From assembly GCA_001871765.1 (NCBI GenBank), contig MNVN01000015.1, forward strand, positions 116,543-162,547: a DNA stretch of 46,005 nucleotides, written 5' to 3'. The notes beneath the pieces are model-generated. The model did not search any database. It worked only from the letters and a program-made list of their open reading frames with translations, and had not been told where the DNA came from. The position numbers were made by a program, and so were the translations under genes. Position 1 is the stretch's first letter, and every line of letters starts with the position of its first letter. Source of the DNA: Candidatus Nomurabacteria bacterium CG1_02_43_90. Lineage in GTDB: Bacteria; Patescibacteriota; Minisyncoccia; Phycocordibacterales; UBA1550. This document shows, in pieces, positions 1,859 through 41,671 of the stretch.

Positions 1859-1885
1859 AAACGCGAGCACACCTCGCGTTTTTAT
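1857..1885 (+). terminator. Rho-independent terminator
   Basis: AAAAACGCGAG-CACAC-CTCGCGTTTTT stem-loop. Confidence 0.75.
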
Positions 1886-1921: not shown

Positions 1922-2161
1922 ATGCAAATGACAATATTTTTAGGTCAGGGGCTTGTGTGGTGGACAGGGATGATTGGTGGTTTCTTTTTCTTGCTTCTTA
2001 TTATCACCGGGCTTGTTAAACAGTATAACTATAATATTTTTGTAAGGTGGCAAGTCCCCCTTACCCCGCTTCATCACTGGTTTGGATGGATTTCTCTCGG
2101 GTTCCTTTTTGTTCATTTCCTCCTCGCGCTCTTCAGTTCAATGTGGAGTGTATTCTTCTAA
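1922..2161 (+). CDS. Small two-helix membrane protein with His residues (possible heme/ferric-reductase-like TM subunit)
   Basis: Two hydrophobic segments; PLTPLHHWFGWISLGFLFVHFLLAL; first gene of redox operon. ATG at 1922 preferred over the track start 1886. Confidence 0.55.
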   Translation: MQMTIFLGQGLVWWTGMIGGFFFLLLIITGLVKQYNYNIFVRWQVPLTPLHHWFGWISLGFLFVHFLLALFSSMWSVFF

Positions 2162-2173
2162 CTCAACTTATCT

Positions 2174-2896
2174 ATGTCCCTCTTTAGTACTATCCGCCAC
2201 TGGTTCACCGAAGCCCCTCATTTTAATGGGACGATTATCGCAACGGAGCGTATTGGCTCACGTATTCAAAAAGTAACAGTCGGGCTTCCCAACACCGTTT
2301 CGGGTCCATTCAATCTCGGCTCGTATGTTGTACCCTATACATGGGGTTGTGTCCCTCGTGCATATTCAGTAGCAAAGACTGATGCGCGATCCTTCACTCT
2401 TTTAGTAAGTTTCTCGGGTGGTGGCACTGGAGCACGTTTTTTTCGCGACGCTCCTGTTGGCACGGCAACAAAGTTCTATGGTCCTTTTGACGATTTTCCT
2501 TACCGTTATGGTACGGGCCGACCAAAAGTATTTTTTGCTACGTCTACAGGTGTTGCACCATTCCGTATGATGGTTGATGAGGCAGTAAAAGAGGGGCTCC
2601 CCGCAACACTCTACCTCGGCTCCCCAAAAGAAGGAGACATTTCTCTTCGTGATGAATTCGAAAGAATTTCTCAAGATTATCCATTATTTACCTTTGTGCC
2701 CGTACTCTCAAAAGCTGATCCATCATGGTCGGGAGCAACTGGATACGTAACAGACTTTATTACCAAAAACCCAACGACGATGCGTAAGAGCGACATCTAT
2801 ATCTGTGGTGTCCCTCCTATGACCATGGGTGTTCTTGGTGCTCTCGAAAAAGTACAAGTTCCCAAAAAACAAATATTTGTACAAAAATTCGGATAA
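2174..2896 (+). CDS. FAD/NAD(P)-binding oxidoreductase (ferredoxin-NADP reductase-like)
   Basis: RAYSVAKT (FAD-binding RxYS), FFATSTGVAPFRMM (NAD-binding), YICGVPPM near C-terminus. Confidence 0.85.
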   Translation: MSLFSTIRHWFTEAPHFNGTIIATERIGSRIQKVTVGLPNTVSGPFNLGSYVVPYTWGCVPRAYSVAKTDARSFTLLVSFSGGGTGARFFRDAPVGTATKFYGPFDDFPYRYGTGRPKVFFATSTGVAPFRMMVDEAVKEGLPATLYLGSPKEGDISLRDEFERISQDYPLFTFVPVLSKADPSWSGATGYVTDFITKNPTTMRKSDIYICGVPPMTMGVLGALEKVQVPKKQIFVQKFG

Positions 2897-2906
2897 ATGG
2901 TATAAT
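2877..2906 (+). promoter_or_regulatory. Internal promoter upstream of 2914 ORF
   Basis: TTGTAC-18 nt-TATAAT, -10 ends 7 nt before ATG at 2914. Confidence 0.5.
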
Positions 2907-2913
2907 CAAAAAT

Positions 2914-3405
2914 ATGGATAATTCAAAAACTACTATGGAAAAAAATGAAATTTTAGTCGATCGAGGAATGGGACAAGTACGCAAATACGGAATCGCAGTA
3001 CTCCTTGCTCTTCTTGCGTTAAATGGCGTAGCTCTTGGTGCTCTACACCTAATAGAGTCCAATGACACCCGCAACGAGCTTATTAAATATGCCAAAACAA
3101 TCCCTGCTCCCGACGTAACCAAGGCAGAGCAGACCATACATCTTCCCGAGGATATTATTGCGTTACGCTCTGACAACATCGACCGCGCTGGTTTTTACGA
3201 GACATCCATTGGTGAACAAGACTATCTTGTTTATGGTGATGTTAATAAACACTACATGCTCATAAAGTCTGAGGCAACCATCCAAAAAGAGATTTTTAGT
3301 TTTGGAATGGCCCTAAGCGCACTCTATGTGGGCGAAGTCATTATCCTCCTTGGATGGTGGTTATTTGTCCGCACAAAAGTTCGTGAAGTATTCGAAATGA
3401 TTTAA
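2914..3405 (+). CDS. Hypothetical two-TM protein with extracytoplasmic domain
   Basis: N-terminal TM (YGIAVLLALLALNGVALGAL) and C-terminal TM (ALYVGEVIILLGWWLFV); in redox operon. Confidence 0.7.
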   Translation: MDNSKTTMEKNEILVDRGMGQVRKYGIAVLLALLALNGVALGALHLIESNDTRNELIKYAKTIPAPDVTKAEQTIHLPEDIIALRSDNIDRAGFYETSIGEQDYLVYGDVNKHYMLIKSEATIQKEIFSFGMALSALYVGEVIILLGWWLFVRTKVREVFEMI

Positions 3406-3416
3406 AAATTAGCACT

Positions 3417-3941
3417 ATGTCTTTATTTACAAAAAATCTAGAGAAATTCCTTATTTTCTTTTTCACTGGGGTTTCTGTCGTACTCATTGTCATGGGCGTT
3501 GCGCGTGCAAAAAAACCAACCTCTCTTGCTGCAGCCCCCGCACCTACTCCAACTCCCGCCCCACAGACAAGCACACTAGGAGCAACAACCATTACAGGGT
3601 CCGCCTACCAGACACCATGGGGAAGTGCTTCTGCTTCTATCACCGTAAAAGGTGGCCAAGTGGTTGCCGTAAGTATGCCTTCTGTACCCAACTCACCCCC
3701 TTCTATTTATGCAGAGCCATACCTTATTGATCAGGCACTGAAAGCTGGTTCTGCAAATATCCAAGGAGTCTCGGGGGCAACCTACACGAGCATCGCGTTC
3801 AAGTCTTCTCTTCAGAGCGCACTCGCACAAGCAACAACGCAAGGGCAGTCGGTCAGCCCAAGTACTAACACAGCCGTAGTCACCCCTACTGCAAAACCTA
3901 CTGTTCCCCAGCGTTATCGCGATGATGATGATGATGATTAG
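3417..3941 (+). CDS. Membrane-anchored FMN-binding domain protein (one flavinylation motif)
   Basis: N-terminal TM, Pro/Ala linker, FMN_bind-like domain with NIQGVSGATYTS; C-terminal poly-Asp. Confidence 0.8.
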   Translation: MSLFTKNLEKFLIFFFTGVSVVLIVMGVARAKKPTSLAAAPAPTPTPAPQTSTLGATTITGSAYQTPWGSASASITVKGGQVVAVSMPSVPNSPPSIYAEPYLIDQALKAGSANIQGVSGATYTSIAFKSSLQSALAQATTQGQSVSPSTNTAVVTPTAKPTVPQRYRDDDDDD

Positions 3942-4030
3942 TAGTTCTTTCTGTAAGATTTGTTGTCTTGTTCCGCCTCCACCTTTAATGAGCGCAGAAA
4001 GCTTATTATTAGCTTAACCCTTATATAATC

Positions 4031-5035
4031 ATGTCATCTTTTCAAAAAAACTTAGAGAAATTTTTTGTGTATTTTTTCGCCAGCGTTTCTATGCTTGTGG
4101 TTATTCTGGGTATTGGGCGAATAAAGCAACCGGGCACACTCGGGACTACTCCTGCACCAAGCGACAGTGGAGCAACGGGAGTAGCAACAACAGCAAAAGC
4201 TACCGCGACTATGGTTGCGGGTGCTCAAGTTGTCAATGCGAGCGGAAAAACGTTCCAAACTCCTTGGGGAAATCTCGCCACGACTATACAAGTTAAAGAT
4301 GGTAAAGTCGTTGCGGTTAATATCCCTACACTCCCCGATTCACCTCCTTCAGTATACGCAAAACAATATCTTATCGACCAAGCACTCCGAAGTGGGTCTT
4401 CAAATATTCAGGGTGTTTCGGGGGCAACAATCACCAGCAACGCGTTCAAGGCATCTCTTGAGAGTGCCCTCGCACAAGCAGCAACACAAGGTATTACCGT
4501 AACGGGTGGTCTTTCTTCAAATACGAGTACGGGTGCCAATACAACAACGCAAACGCCCCCACCAGCAGCACCAGCTCCTACGCCAAAAATTACTGCACCG
4601 ACGATAGCTAAAACAACATCAAATACAGCGAGCGCGCCAGCGAGTGTTTCGGGTACATTCACAGGATCTGCATATCAGACACCGTGGGGAAATGCCGTTG
4701 CTTCGGTAACCTTTACCAATGGCAAGATTACGAATGTAACTATGCCACAAGTTCCTAACTCTCCTCCTTCTCAACAAGCAGAGCCGTACCTTATACAACA
4801 AGCTATGGCAGCAGGGAGTGCAAATATTCAAGGAGTCTCAGGGGCAACCTACGCAAGTATCGCCTTCAAGTCATCCCTTGAAAGTGCTATTGCAAAAGCA
4901 AGCGCACAAGGCACAGTAGCCGCAAGTGTAACCAGTACTTCTGGGGCATCAGCAACAAAAACTACAACAGCACAGCCAACCGTTTCGCGAACATACAAGA
5001 CACATAGTGAAAAGAACGAGGATTTTGACGATTAA
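4031..5035 (+). CDS. Membrane-anchored protein with two tandem FMN-binding domains
   Basis: N-terminal TM homologous to the 3417 ORF (MSSFQKNLEKFFVYFFASVSMLVVILGIGRIKQP); two motifs SGATITS and SGATYAS. Confidence 0.82.
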   Translation: MSSFQKNLEKFFVYFFASVSMLVVILGIGRIKQPGTLGTTPAPSDSGATGVATTAKATATMVAGAQVVNASGKTFQTPWGNLATTIQVKDGKVVAVNIPTLPDSPPSVYAKQYLIDQALRSGSSNIQGVSGATITSNAFKASLESALAQAATQGITVTGGLSSNTSTGANTTTQTPPPAAPAPTPKITAPTIAKTTSNTASAPASVSGTFTGSAYQTPWGNAVASVTFTNGKITNVTMPQVPNSPPSQQAEPYLIQQAMAAGSANIQGVSGATYASIAFKSSLESAIAKASAQGTVAASVTSTSGASATKTTTAQPTVSRTYKTHSEKNEDFDD

Positions 5036-5038
5036 TTT

Positions 5039-5962
5039 ATGACTGAGCATCGCATATTTCATTCAATGGGGATTCCCGTCCATATCACTATGGTCGGGTT
5101 TTCTTCGTCGGAGGCTGACGCCGCTCTTGCACGCGCAGAAGATATTTTTACCGAATACGATCTTCGCTTTAGTCGTTTCAAGTCGGAGAGCGAACTCATG
5201 AGGCTAAATACAAGTAACGGTTCATGGCACAAAGTAAGTATCGAACTTTTTCAAGTTATCAAAAAATGCGTTGCACTTTCTGCAGAGACCGATGGCAGTT
5301 TCGATCCATCAGTAGGAGGTGTACTTGCTTCTTATGGATACGGATTGCCATTAAATTTTGAATTACCTGAGGTGCTCCCCACCTACCGAGACCTTGCCTT
5401 CAATGACCGCGAACTTTTGATACGCCTCGCACCAAAACAAATCCTTGAGCCTGCTTGTATTGTAAAAGGTATGGCTATTGATATGGCAGGAAAAGCTATT
5501 GTCGAAAAAATGGATACTTCTCGACAAGGGTTTATCATAAACGCAGGAGGTGATATTTTTACTCAGGGTTCATTTGAGGACGGAAAGCAGTGGAACGTTG
5601 CTATTCAAGACCCACGTAGCGCAGACGCGATTATAACGGCTGCGGGGATACAAAATGCAGGCATGGCGACCTCCGGGACCTATCAAACAGGAGGAGAACA
5701 CCATGGTAAAAAATGGCACCATTTAGTAAATATGCAGACAGCGGAATCAGCTCCTGGAATAGTCAGCGCGACCGTTATAGCCCGCACTTGTGAAGAAGCT
5801 GACACGGAAGCATCCCTCGTAATACTCCTCCCTCTTGAAAAAGCAGTCGCCAGACTTGAAGCGCGCCAGCTTCCCTATTTCATTATTTCTGAGAATGGCA
5901 CCGTCACAAAAAATAACACATTTGCGCAACTAGAAATACCTATCGCAACACTTGTTGCATAA
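5039..5962 (+). CDS. apbE: FAD:protein FMN transferase (ApbE family)
   Basis: KGMAIDMAGKAIVEKM...GFIINAGGDIFTQG, GMATSGTYQTGG, TVIARTCEEADTEASLVILL. Confidence 0.9.
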   Translation: MTEHRIFHSMGIPVHITMVGFSSSEADAALARAEDIFTEYDLRFSRFKSESELMRLNTSNGSWHKVSIELFQVIKKCVALSAETDGSFDPSVGGVLASYGYGLPLNFELPEVLPTYRDLAFNDRELLIRLAPKQILEPACIVKGMAIDMAGKAIVEKMDTSRQGFIINAGGDIFTQGSFEDGKQWNVAIQDPRSADAIITAAGIQNAGMATSGTYQTGGEHHGKKWHHLVNMQTAESAPGIVSATVIARTCEEADTEASLVILLPLEKAVARLEARQLPYFIISENGTVTKNNTFAQLEIPIATLVA

Positions 5963-5967
5963 AAAAG

Positions 5968-5995
5968 AGCCAGTCTGCATGCATGCAAACTGGCT
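5968..5995 (+). terminator. Stem-loop downstream of apbE
   Basis: AGCCAGT-TTGCATGCATGCAA-like loop-ACTGGCT; weak T tail. Confidence 0.45.
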
Positions 5996-21451: not shown

Positions 21452-22246
21452 TTATTTTTTAATTATGACTTCGACTTCATGAATATCTGCAATGTTAAAA
21501 GGTGTCCTAAAAAAAACGTTGACAAAAGGAAGTGCGGGTTCCTCTTCGACAAGGCCCACTGTTCCCAAAATAAGATTTCCCTTAGGAAGTACTACGATAT
21601 CTCCTTTTTCTACTACAGAACCCTTAGGAAGCTTCGCTTCGAAGTTCCCCATGCCACGTCCATGCGCAGAGGAAGGGGTAGATTTCGGGCCAATAAAAAC
21701 AATATTTTCCTCCCCGGGAGAGGAGTAAAGTTTCACTTTTGCCGAAGTTGGATACACCTCAGCAACCACACCAATAACGCCCGCATTCGCATAAACAACA
21801 AGGTCCCCCAGAGCGATGCCGTGGTCGGACCCCGCATCAATACCTAGAATGTCATAGGGTGACCACCGAGGACTCGACAATACTTCTGCAGAAACCCGGT
21901 TATCACTCCCCGCACGCCCAAGAGCGTCCTCTAGTTTCAAAACTTTTTCAGAGAGGAGATTCCTATCGAGCACCTGTACTTGCATACGCGCAACTTCCTC
22001 CCGAAGAATAATATTCTCATAGACGAGTGATCTTTTAATTTTAAAATTTGTCAAAAAAGTGTCCCCACTCTCCAATGCGACTGCGCGTGTTTTCCAAATA
22101 CTTGGAGCAACGATATAGAGCACTTGAGACAATGCGGTTCGAACAGGATTGTAGGAAAGAGCAAAAATGCTTATCGCAACAAAAATAATAAGCGCGAGAT
22201 TCTTCCCTCTTAATAAAGAGTTATCGCGGAGGCGCATCATTTTCAT
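21452..22246 (-). CDS. mreC: Rod shape-determining protein MreC
   Basis: N-terminal TM, coiled-coil, RWSPYDILGIDAGSDHGIALGDLVVYANAGVIGVVAEV; downstream of mreB. Exact start uncertain (candidate Mets at 22246/22237). Confidence 0.87.
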   Translation of the reverse strand: MKMMRLRDNSLLRGKNLALIIFVAISIFALSYNPVRTALSQVLYIVAPSIWKTRAVALESGDTFLTNFKIKRSLVYENIILREEVARMQVQVLDRNLLSEKVLKLEDALGRAGSDNRVSAEVLSSPRWSPYDILGIDAGSDHGIALGDLVVYANAGVIGVVAEVYPTSAKVKLYSSPGEENIVFIGPKSTPSSAHGRGMGNFEAKLPKGSVVEKGDIVVLPKGNLILGTVGLVEEEPALPFVNVFFRTPFNIADIHEVEVIIKK

Positions 22247-23270
22247 GTTCAATAAGAACCTCCCGGAATCCATCCATTTCTTCCAAGATAATCCCCGTTC
22301 CCCGGGCAACTGCTGTTAGGGGGTCATTTGCAACATACACGGGAACATGCAAGGTTTGGGAGAGAAGGTCGTCCAGACCACGGAGAAGCGCCCCCCCACC
22401 AACGAGGATAATGCCACGACTCATTACATCAGAAAGTACCTCGGGTGGTGTTGTTTCAATTACTTCCTTAACCGCATCGACCAAGCCAACGATAGAAACA
22501 CTCATTGCTTCTCGAATATCTGTATCAGTTACGACAACTTCGCGAGGAAGCCCGGTGACGAGATCACGCCCACGAATAACTGCTTCCATGGGGCTTACTC
22601 CTTTTTTAACAGAACCGATCGCAATCTTAACACTTTCAGCAGTACGCTCACCAATCAAGACTCGGAATTCATCGCGAACATAGTTAATAATATCGTTATT
22701 CAAACGATCCCCCGCAATATGTAAATTTTTTGAGCGTACAATTCCCCCTAGTGAAATAACGGCAATATCGGTAGTACCACCCCCAATATCGATGATCATG
22801 TTTCCTACTGGGTCCTTTACGGGAAGCTTGATCCCAATTGCTGCCGCCATCGGTTCTTCAACAATGTGCACCTCACGTGCGCCAGCATTTTTTGCAGCAT
22901 CATACACCGCCCGAATCTCAACACTCGTGATACCCGAAGGTACTCCTACGACTACCCGCGGACGCACGGTCTTTTTACTAATTTTGTTTGCCTTATTGAT
23001 TAGATACGAAAGCATTTCTTCTGTTACTTCAAAGTTTGAAATAACTCCATCAACAAGGGGGCGAATAGCAACTACGTGGCCTGGTGTACGTCCGATCATT
23101 TGCTTTGCTTGTGACCCAAGTGCAACTACCGTACCAGTCTTTTGGTTTACAGCAACCACCGATGGTTCATTGATAACGATTCCATGATCCCGTAAGTAGA
23201 CAAGGGTATTCGCCGTACCGAGGTCGATACCGATGTCGTTAGAAAAGAGTTGGTAAAATTTATCAAACAT
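22221..23270 (-). CDS. mreB: Rod shape-determining protein MreB
   Basis: DIGIDLGTANTLVYLRDHGIVINEPSVVAVN, MIDIGGGTTDIAVISLGGIV, GIILVGGGALLRGL. Confidence 0.95.
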   Translation of the reverse strand: MFDKFYQLFSNDIGIDLGTANTLVYLRDHGIVINEPSVVAVNQKTGTVVALGSQAKQMIGRTPGHVVAIRPLVDGVISNFEVTEEMLSYLINKANKISKKTVRPRVVVGVPSGITSVEIRAVYDAAKNAGAREVHIVEEPMAAAIGIKLPVKDPVGNMIIDIGGGTTDIAVISLGGIVRSKNLHIAGDRLNNDIINYVRDEFRVLIGERTAESVKIAIGSVKKGVSPMEAVIRGRDLVTGLPREVVVTDTDIREAMSVSIVGLVDAVKEVIETTPPEVLSDVMSRGIILVGGGALLRGLDDLLSQTLHVPVYVANDPLTAVARGTGIILEEMDGFREVLIEHENDAPPR

Positions 23271-29575: not shown

Positions 29576-29606
29576 GCGCTATCGAACCATCGATGGCGCT
29601 CTTTTT
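29576..29606 (+). terminator. Rho-independent terminator
   Basis: GCGCTATCGA-ACCA-TCGATGGCGC-TCTTTTT. Confidence 0.8.
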
Positions 29607-30618
29607 ATTTTTTCGCGAGAATACTTTTCTTGTAGGTTTCTAGGTGCTCAAGGGCAATCCCTGTGCCTTTTACGACACAGTACAATGCATCTTCGGCAAG
29701 CACTGCTTTTACCCCCGTGCGACGTTCAACGAGCTCAGGAAGGTTGCGTAACTGTGACGATCCACCTGTCATAATGATCCCCTGATCGATAATATCCGCA
29801 GCCAGCTCAGGGGGAGTATCTTGGAGAACTTCCTTAATGGCGCGCACAATTTCGCGCAATTCCTTTTCGATTGCTTTTACAATTTCGTTGGTCGTTACCT
29901 GTGCCGTACGAGGAAGTCCTGTAATATAATCACGTCCCTTAATCGTCAGGAGAAGCTCGTCTTCTATAGGTATCGCTGAGCCAATACGAATCTTTATTGC
30001 CTCAGCTGTATGATCACCAATAGCGAGGTTAAATGTTTTTTTAATATGATCCGCGATAGCGTGATCGATTTTGTTGCCTGCATATTTTACCGAAGTCGAA
30101 GCAACAATACCTCCCAGAGAAATTACTGCCACATCCGTTGTGCCTCCTCCAATATCCACGATCATGTGTCCACAGGCCTCATAGATGGGGATTCCTGCGC
30201 CAATTGCCGCGAGAATAGGCTCCTTCACTACATAGGCGCTCTTCGCGCCAGCTTTAATCGTGGCTTCAATAACCGCCCGGCGCTCCGTCGAAGAAACCCC
30301 TGCAGGAACAGAAACCATTACTTCTGGTTTCAAAATGTTCCACTTACCTAGTGCTTTATTAATATAATAGCGAATCATCGCCTCGGTAACACGGTAGTCA
30401 GCAATGACACCGTCTTTCATAGGGCGGTACGCGATGATGTTGTCGGGCGTACGACCAATCATTTGTTTCGCCTCGAGACCAACTGCCATAATGCGGTTGT
30501 CTTGCTGGTTCACCGCAACCACCGAAGGCTCGTTGAGAACAATCCCCTTACCAGGAATATATACAAGGGTATTTGCGGTGCCGAGATCAATACCGATTTT
30601 TCTTACAAAAAATGACAT
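29605..30618 (-). CDS. MreB-family actin-like protein, second paralog
   Basis: IGIDLGTANTLVYIPGKGIVLNEPSVVAVNQQ, MIVDIGGGTTDVAVISLGGIV, GIIMTGGSSQLRNL. Confidence 0.93.
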   Translation of the reverse strand: MSFFVRKIGIDLGTANTLVYIPGKGIVLNEPSVVAVNQQDNRIMAVGLEAKQMIGRTPDNIIAYRPMKDGVIADYRVTEAMIRYYINKALGKWNILKPEVMVSVPAGVSSTERRAVIEATIKAGAKSAYVVKEPILAAIGAGIPIYEACGHMIVDIGGGTTDVAVISLGGIVASTSVKYAGNKIDHAIADHIKKTFNLAIGDHTAEAIKIRIGSAIPIEDELLLTIKGRDYITGLPRTAQVTTNEIVKAIEKELREIVRAIKEVLQDTPPELAADIIDQGIIMTGGSSQLRNLPELVERRTGVKAVLAEDALYCVVKGTGIALEHLETYKKSILAKK

Positions 30619-40096: not shown

Positions 40097-40171
40097 TCCG
40101 CGGTAGCTCAGTGGTAGAGCAAGCGACTGTTAATCGCTTGGTCGTAGGTTCGATCCCTACCCGCGGAGCCA
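40097..40171 (+). tRNA. tRNA-Asn (anticodon GTT), CCA encoded
   Basis: TCCGCGG/CCGCGGA acceptor stem, GCGACTGTTAATCGC anticodon arm, GTAGGTTCGATCCCTAC T-arm, GCCA end. Confidence 0.95.
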
Positions 40172-41671
40172 GTTAGGACTATCAGCTAGTTCTAGTACTA
40201 AATTAAACGGAGAAGCTATTGCAAAATATAGCTCTTTTCCGTTTACAGTCGGGTTCTGAAGTATGTAATTCAAAAATGCTCTTTTCTCAGCAGGTTCAGA
40301 ACTGTTTTCAAAAATGGTCTTTGCCCTGCGTGCCACTGAAATGACCGTAGCAACGGTTGTTTGGTAATCATAGTCCGCTTTTCTATGTTCAGAAAGTTCA
40401 ATTTCTAGCTCTTGCATCTTGTCCTGATACTCTTGATGCTTTTTGTCATAGATGTCCTTAGTAATACTCTGGTCTAGGTAAGCTTCAAGAAGACGATTAT
40501 CTTTTGATTTGTAATTTTCATAATCAGTCCTTATTCGGTTCATCTGTGCCTTATGGAATACAACTTCGGCTTCAGTGTTCTTTCGTAGCTCATCAACAAG
40601 ACCATTCTGTGTTTCCTCAGTGATGCTTTCAAATCGCTCCAAGACCTCATAAATGGGCTTCAGAAGCTCTAGTTCGTTCACATAGACCCTTTCACATATC
40701 TTCTTGGAATTAGTGCAAGAACCGATTACATATTCCTTACCGCTTGGCTTAATTTTATGCTCAAATGAGATGGCACAACCGCAGTTATGGCACTTCAAAA
40801 GCCCTTTGAATATAAAGTCCTTAGAATGTGCCTTAGAGGGCATTTTAGTGCGTTTTGAGCGTACTTCTTGGCACTTATCAAAGAGTTCTCTTGAAATAAG
40901 TCTTGGATATTTGTGAGCATAAGCACCGTACTTTTTTGATATAGCAATACCACAATAAAAACTATCCTTTAACATATTTTCTACACAGCTTTTGGATAGC
41001 TTAAAACCCTTGAGACTACGAAGTCCAAGTTTTGTCATTTCTATTCGTATGGTTTCAAGAGAGTGATTTCCAGTTGCATAAAGCTCAAACATCTTTGCAA
41101 CAAGATGACCTCGTTCGGGGTCAATGATTATATCCTTACGCAGTCTCTTTTCTACATCCAAAGCAACATTCAAATAACCTAACCGAACAGCTCCTGTCCA
41201 TTCGCCATTTCTTCGCTTCTGCTCAAATGCTCTTTTTACATTGTCGCCAATCGCATCAGAATAGTATTTAGCTAGACCCAAGCTCATACCAAACTGGAAC
41301 TTTTCTACGGCTGACATCTGGCTGTTTATTACCTGACCCTCTGACACAAAATGAAGCTCAATTTTGTCAGCTACAGCAAGTTCATATAGTCGTGCAACTC
41401 GTTTATCAAATACACTTCTTGAAAGACGGTCTACTTTATCAAAGCAGACAGCAATTTTTTCTTTCTTAATTATGTTCTCAACAAACTCAAGTAACTTATC
41501 AAACTCGTCTCGTTTTTCTTTGTAAGCACTCTCGTCAAAGCTATACGACTTTACGACATCAAAAGATTTCTTGTTGCAGTAACTTCTAATACGCTCAATT
41601 TGAGCAGGTAAAGAGTTACCAGCTTCTTTTTGTTCTTCAGTTGATACTCTTGAGACATTTATTGCTTTCAT
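40157..41671 (-). CDS. Large serine recombinase/integrase
   Basis: INVSRVSTEEQKEAGNSLPAQIERI, FDKVDRLSRS, GYLNV.., zinc ribbon CHNCGCAISFEH...CTNSKKIC, coiled-coil. Confidence 0.93.
   Translation of the reverse strand: MKAINVSRVSTEEQKEAGNSLPAQIERIRSYCNKKSFDVVKSYSFDESAYKEKRDEFDKLLEFVENIIKKEKIAVCFDKVDRLSRSVFDKRVARLYELAVADKIELHFVSEGQVINSQMSAVEKFQFGMSLGLAKYYSDAIGDNVKRAFEQKRRNGEWTGAVRLGYLNVALDVEKRLRKDIIIDPERGHLVAKMFELYATGNHSLETIRIEMTKLGLRSLKGFKLSKSCVENMLKDSFYCGIAISKKYGAYAHKYPRLISRELFDKCQEVRSKRTKMPSKAHSKDFIFKGLLKCHNCGCAISFEHKIKPSGKEYVIGSCTNSKKICERVYVNELELLKPIYEVLERFESITEETQNGLVDELRKNTEAEVVFHKAQMNRIRTDYENYKSKDNRLLEAYLDQSITKDIYDKKHQEYQDKMQELEIELSEHRKADYDYQTTVATVISVARRAKTIFENSSEPAEKRAFLNYILQNPTVNGKELYFAIASPFNLVLELADSPNWLRG

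Follow-up and report, generated by a model that had tools for sequence, protein, structure and literature searches.

A 46,005-nucleotide (nt) stretch of DNA from Candidatus Nomurabacteria bacterium CG1_02_43_90 (the window; G000:C8:116543-162547) carries an operon of six genes that we interpret, at odds of roughly two to one, as encoding a minimal transmembrane chain exporting electrons from NAD(P)H to flavins on the outside of the cell. The genes and their products are named here by their first position in the window (Table 1). A preliminary description had listed six plus-strand open reading frames (ORFs) and suggested a minimal NAD(P)H-to-surface flavin path in an apparently reduced genome. 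All six ORFs are where it placed them, and the source genome is indeed reduced, at 681,623 bp and 98.8% completeness. The path is supported as an interpretation in which the donor, the outward direction and the heme content are read from homology. The two findings on which that description was to stand or fall also came out in its favor: the FMN_bind and ApbE Pfam models both match, and the genes remain linked in relatives, including one other Patescibacteria lineage.

In the proposed chain, 2174 would accept hydride from NAD(P)H at the cytosolic face, its flavin adenine dinucleotide (FAD) relaying the electrons into the membrane. There a homodimer of 1922 would supply four helices and two copies of an H-x13-H motif, holding a membrane-spanning stack of two b-type hemes, with H51 toward the inner and H65 toward the outer side. 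The electrons would next reach the flavin mononucleotide (FMN) that ApbE had attached covalently to the SGAT threonines of 3417 and 4031. These flavoproteins, which 2914 probably docks to the cytochrome, would hand them to an acceptor outside the cell, for which ferric iron, O2 and a quinone-like compound are candidates. For a fermenter, such export would be an electron sink.

Conservation and distribution

The operon is a real functional unit and not a chance arrangement, because most nucleotide changes fall at third codon positions and related genomes repeat the gene order. Third positions gather the substitutions in the genes for 1922, 2174 and 2914, pointing to selection as proteins; between the 1922 gene and its counterpart at locus L025 the counts at codon positions 1, 2 and 3 are 12, 4 and 41. 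The order shared among the loci found by tblastn and profile searches is the 79-amino-acid (aa) gene (1922), FNR, 2914, one or two FMN_bind genes and ApbE. It is kept in members of the genus, the named members of which in our genome collection are mostly Candidatus Yonathbacteria, as well as in Magasanikbacteria SZUA-124 (L032) and BP6.bin83 (L031). The operon is divided between two contigs in G002, and L024 has no ApbE within the stretch examined. Flanking genes vary among several inspected loci.

ApbE occurs in 10 of the 16 genus genomes, and the 79-aa gene is present in the same 10 and absent from the other six. Within the order, the 79-aa gene was seen in this genus only (6/297 genomes). 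A sample of the phylum contained relatives of it in 7 of 380 genomes, one of them a weak match with in-frame stops, and ApbE in 83 of the 380. A match in Niabella (L035) was partial, covering 31 residues at 35% identity, and was treated as chance. No published description of the operon was found in a literature search that excluded subscription journals, preprints and supplementary files.

The commonest arrangement in the inspected Patescibacteria loci is FMN_bind and ApbE with an NqrB/RnfD-FNR fusion. One genus member (G013) has both types, an operon like that of the window (L018) and an Nqr/Rnf-like cluster (L023). The order in G197 is FMN_bind, ApbE, an 85-aa hairpin protein and FNR, with no 2914 homologue in that stretch; this locus is a clean exchange of the membrane module relative to the arrangement of FMN_bind, ApbE and NqrB/FNR fusion in many other Patescibacteria.

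The small membrane protein 1922

The preliminary description of 1922 as a 79-aa two-helix protein with transmembrane (TM) histidines agrees with its AlphaFold2 model, a two-helix hairpin with H51 and H65 in helix 2 (predicted local distance difference test, pLDDT, 87). The ATG at 1922 is the likely start, and the upstream part of a longer ORF beginning with TTG at 1886 is not conserved. Pfam matches were all below cut-off (DUF4405 2.6e-4, b561 4.4e-3, Ferric_reduct 0.033), and strongly diverged or fused homologues of 1922 match the same three models. With two helices in one chain, the protein lacks the six TM helices and four central histidines of DUF4405, and it would have four histidines only if dimeric. 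The top matches in a fold search with the hairpin included mycobacterial cytochrome b (QcrB) but, with E values of 3 or worse, were uninformative, and a sequence search of the PDB with the cytochrome profile gave no meaningful match.

Among 12 homologues H51, H52 and H65 are invariant, H51 and H65 forming the H-x13-H pair. Because H52 can be Lys (in L050) while the H-x13-H pair persists in distant homologues, the axial heme ligands are likely to be H51 and H65. By hand-worked geometry these two are 14 residues and about 21 Å apart along the helix, on approximately the same face. The pair H52/H65 was rejected, its members being 13 residues apart, on different faces, and H52 being replaceable.

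Three genomes (G156, G277 and G197) encode a 151-aa two-hairpin protein whose gene lies immediately ahead of one for an FNR; H-x13-H is present in each half (checked for G156 and G197). The G197 copy (L054) passes the DUF4405 cut-off, at 33.4 against 26.7. Neither FMN_bind nor ApbE was found beside the fused genes in the stretches examined (L051-L054). From these relationships we regard 1922 as a putative single module of the DUF4405/cytochrome b561/ferric-reductase kind and, mainly because the fused double form exists, propose that it probably works as a homodimeric two-heme conduit, half the size of the known flavinylation-associated cytochromes. The very small putative heme subunit, for which the preliminary description recognized no matching textbook arrangement, thus has a precedent in modules of this kind, with the fused double form occurring elsewhere.

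The oxidoreductase 2174 and the protein 2914

The match of 2174 to NAD_binding_1 (PF00175) is over cut-off (8.6e-18, 65.4 bits), and that to FAD_binding_6 is weak (13.5 bits against a cut-off of 21.1). Family models for MmoC (3.1e-25) and BenC (9.2e-24) matched below their equivalog cut-offs, and profile matches in the PDB included BenC (1krh, 4e-19) and NqrF (7e-19). The protein has an RxYS motif (PRAYS at residues 61-65, with R, Y and S invariant) and the motif STGVAPF, and is without an Fe-S domain. The domain match, the RxYS motif and the PDB profiles bear out its assignment as an FNR-like FAD/NAD oxidoreductase, presumed to be cytosolic. Its nearest profiles, NqrF and BenC, are of the NADH type, which hints that NADH may be the donor.

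The AlphaFold2 model of 2914 (pLDDT 76) runs TM helix, helix, four strands, TM helix, as expected of what had been called a 2-TM protein with an outer domain. It has no Pfam family match and no convincing sequence or fold match in the PDB (best Foldseek E 0.29, matches scattered), and stays unassigned. The family is confined to this operon, apart from a single marginal match that spans 40 residues at E 1e-3 and contains a stop. The protein is perhaps a docking subunit. Its reading as an orphan histidine-kinase sensor was an impression only and is not claimed.

FMN_bind proteins and ApbE

Both FMN_bind (PF04205) matches are over cut-off, at 6.3e-6 for 3417, which has one SGAT site, and at 1.7e-13 in two stretches for 4031, which has two. 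Relatives have one to four such sites, against three in the window. The two proteins have an N-terminal hydrophobic anchor, as do 66 of the 67 FMN_bind proteins in the phylum set, and 5039 matches ApbE (PF02424) at 1.4e-48, with 166 bits against a cut-off of 25.6. The pair of anchored SGAT proteins and the ApbE are thus as first described. In 3417 an Ala/Pro/Thr linker is followed by a poly-Asp C-terminus, and the Ala/Pro/Thr-rich linkers are the richest Pro/Thr/Ser/Ala stretches of any listed ORF in the window. The N-terminal flank of the anchor is the more positive one in 34 of 44 FMN proteins from cytochrome-free loci, which is what a C-terminus on the outside would predict, and in 11 of 17 that are cytochrome-linked. 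An outside location of the FMN domains is likely from these sequence features. Many of the FMN proteins in the genus, 3417 and 4031 among them, have acidic C-terminal tails (DDDDDD, DDDEWDD), which are absent from L031 and L032.

The ApbE match begins at residue 10, and the fmnB stop lies in frame 3 nt upstream of 5039; therefore the window ApbE has no upstream extension. None of 81 Patescibacteria ApbEs (the window and loci L014-L126) has an evident signal peptide by a hydrophobicity scan, which is not a trained predictor; FMN_bind proteins put through the identical scan provided an internal positive control. The domain starts within 18 residues of the N-terminus in 68 of the 81, and those with longer N-termini look like over-extended starts because the longest ORF was taken. 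A signal-less ApbE may be a feature of the whole phylum. Of the features used to recognize extracytosolic flavinylation (PMC8238504), the operon has FMN_bind with S/TGAT, ApbE and a substrate anchor, and lacks the ApbE signal peptide. The fit with textbook extracytosolic flavinylation is poor in this respect, a point absent from the preliminary description.

Alternative interpretations

Several observations weigh against electron export. The DUF4405 (PF14358) score of 1922 is 21.9 bits, below the gathering threshold of 26.7; searches of the window genome and of 15 genus relatives turned up no ferrochelatase; and no acceptor gene is linked to the operon. Both window FMN proteins are more positive after the TM helix than before it, and charge leaves their topology unfixed. 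The hydrophobicity scan found no signal peptide on the window ApbE, and the window genome yielded no TatC match, which together sit awkwardly with the flavinylation of an exported protein.

The same wiring could serve an assimilatory or protective reductase, for ferric iron uptake or the removal of O2 or peroxide, in place of an energy-related sink, which we consider rather unlikely. Flavinylation clusters are often found beside iron transporters, and ferrosomes include the DUF4405-like FezC (PMC8238504, PMC11334425), but inspection by eye recognized neither an iron transporter nor any other gene specific to a substrate beside the operon, either in the window or at five related loci with differing flanks.

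It is unlikely that the FMN_bind domains are cytosolic, together with the signal-less ApbE, and that the operon is no export path, its cytochrome and FNR instead trading electrons with flavins in the cytosol, for example to reduce NAD+ at the expense of a donor outside the cell. Such an arrangement would suit the signal-less ApbE, the missing TatC and the charge around the two window anchors, and in Klebsiella a cytosolic ApbE does act on a cytosolic substrate (PMC12052999). However, the FMN proteins of the phylum mostly look N-in by the counts given above, the linkers look extracellular, and the characterized FMN_bind partners are extracytosolic (PMC8238504).

Electron export could be reconciled with these ApbEs if Patescibacteria have reorganized the toolkit, a cytosolic, signal-less ApbE loading anchored flavoproteins with FMN either ahead of Sec export or in its course, with no need of Tat, and some lineages using as their transmembrane conduit a homodimer of a 79-aa hairpin with scavenged heme. 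We put this combination forward tentatively, as possible rather than probable. Flavinylation in the candidate phyla radiation (CPR) was described as strikingly underrepresented after a filter for signal peptides or lipidation sites (PMC8238504). If the toolkit was so reorganized, that rarity may partly reflect signal-peptide filtering. Genomes of this type may be undercounted as a result of the filter, but its effect is uncertain because either one of FMN_bind and ApbE could supply the signal (PMC8238504).

Without ferrochelatase, heme would have to come from outside. Heme-copper-oxidase subunit I (COX1) is encoded in 8 of the 16 genus genomes, most with two matches, and is missing from the window genome. 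Because these eight genomes encode COX1 without ferrochelatase, scavenging of outside heme is plausible in this genus. It is quite improbable that 1922 is a small membrane adaptor, with electrons crossing via a membrane quinone or 2914, as its two TM helices, its sub-threshold score and the lack of ferrochelatase in the genus might suggest, given the invariance of H51 and H65, the retention of their spacing in homologues that are fused or highly diverged, the matches of these homologues to DUF4405, b561 and Ferric_reduct, and the oxidase-bearing relatives for which outside heme is plausible.

Operon borders and other genes in the window

A scan for sigma-70 promoters and terminators returned numbers close to those of shuffled sequence (14 promoters where 8.8 were expected and 5 terminators where 4.5 were); therefore only the 12-pair hairpin after apbE was used from it. 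Directly upstream of the operon is an 80-aa ORF of no known family (1616-1858), after which come a hairpin and a run of T. Two MreB-like genes (IGIDLGTANTLVY) were recognized by eye on the minus strand at 22221-23270 and 29605-30618, and a serine-recombinase-like ORF, possibly part of a mobile element, near the window end at 40157-41671.

Table 1. Coordinates of the operon, its borders and the related loci; positions are those of the window unless a locus is given
Feature	Position	Strand	Description	Basis
Six-gene operon	1922-5962	+	Same-strand genes, intergenic gaps 3-89 nt	
1922	1922-2161	+	79 aa, two-TM DUF4405-like cytochrome b candidate	Pfam, homologues, AlphaFold2
2174	2174-2896	+	240 aa, FNR-type FAD/NAD(P)H oxidoreductase	NAD_binding_1, PDB profiles
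2914	2914-3405	+	163 aa, two-TM protein with predicted small outer alpha/beta domain	AlphaFold2 model
3417	3417-3941	+	174 aa, membrane-anchored FMN_bind protein	PF04205, sequence
4031	4031-5035	+	334 aa, membrane-anchored protein with two FMN_bind domains	PF04205, sequence
5039	5039-5962	+	307 aa, ApbE FAD:protein FMN transferase	PF02424, sequence
GC-rich hairpin and T run	1859-1885		Ends upstream gene; upstream operon border	Read by eye, not returned by scanner
12-pair terminator-like hairpin	5968-5995		After apbE; downstream operon border; T run on minus strand	
Fused double-hairpin 151-aa cytochromes (putative)	L051 6763-7218; L052 471-926; L053 7248-7703; L054 7224-7679		Directly before FNR	
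Nqr/Rnf-like cluster	L023 10450-13271 (G013:C58)		FMN_bind, ApbE and NqrB/FNR	

Significance and comparison with known systems

The usual picture of Patescibacteria is one of fermenters that possess few components for electron transport. The operon would offer a concrete route by which such cells could shed reducing power. The protein 1922 may be among the smallest transmembrane cytochromes, and the occurrence of single and fused hairpins suggests that the larger DUF4405/ferric-reductase-type cytochromes could arise by duplication. The signal-less ApbEs raise the question of where flavinylation happens relative to export.

After purification, both FezC and a DUF4405 protein bind heme b, and genes for DUF4405 occur in linkage with apbE (mSystems 2024, PMC11334425); FezC has been proposed to build its heme sites by homodimerization (PMC11334425). 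The operon resembles these cytochromes (PMC11334425) in its DUF4405-type module, paired histidines and apbE linkage. Its hairpin differs from DUF4405 in having 79 aa, two TM helices and two likely ligand histidines, compared with six TM helices and four histidines, and the operon differs from both DUF4405 and FezC in its occurrence in Patescibacteria, its separate FNR gene and the new 2914 subunit.

An Nqr/Rnf-like flavinylation system is known in Patescibacteria and Actinobacteria (eLife 2021, PMC8238504). Like it, the operon clusters an FNR NAD-binding domain (PF00175) with FMN_bind and ApbE and would provide a single pathway of electron export. Unlike it, the membrane part is a cytochrome-type hairpin and the FNR is a separate protein; the NqrB/RnfD domain (PF03116) has no match in the six operon proteins and is present in L023 from the same genus. 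In NOX/ferric reductase (FRE) and Fre-MsrQ, electrons pass from NAD(P)H through FAD and two stacked hemes, with H-x13-H, to the outer side. The operon differs from these in being split into proteins of 79 and 240 aa and in its proposed outer acceptor, a covalent FMN protein.

As in multi-flavinylated proteins (PMC8238504), several FMN_bind domains can occur in one protein, two here and three in L020; the small, 0.68 Mb genome and the poly-Asp tails are differences from these (PMC8238504). Because the G197 locus swaps the membrane module and the NqrB/RnfD-FNR fusion is the commonest arrangement elsewhere, the operon would appear to be a cytochrome-type alternative, in which a single-hairpin and probably dimeric protein replaces NqrB/RnfD or the six-TM DUF4405.

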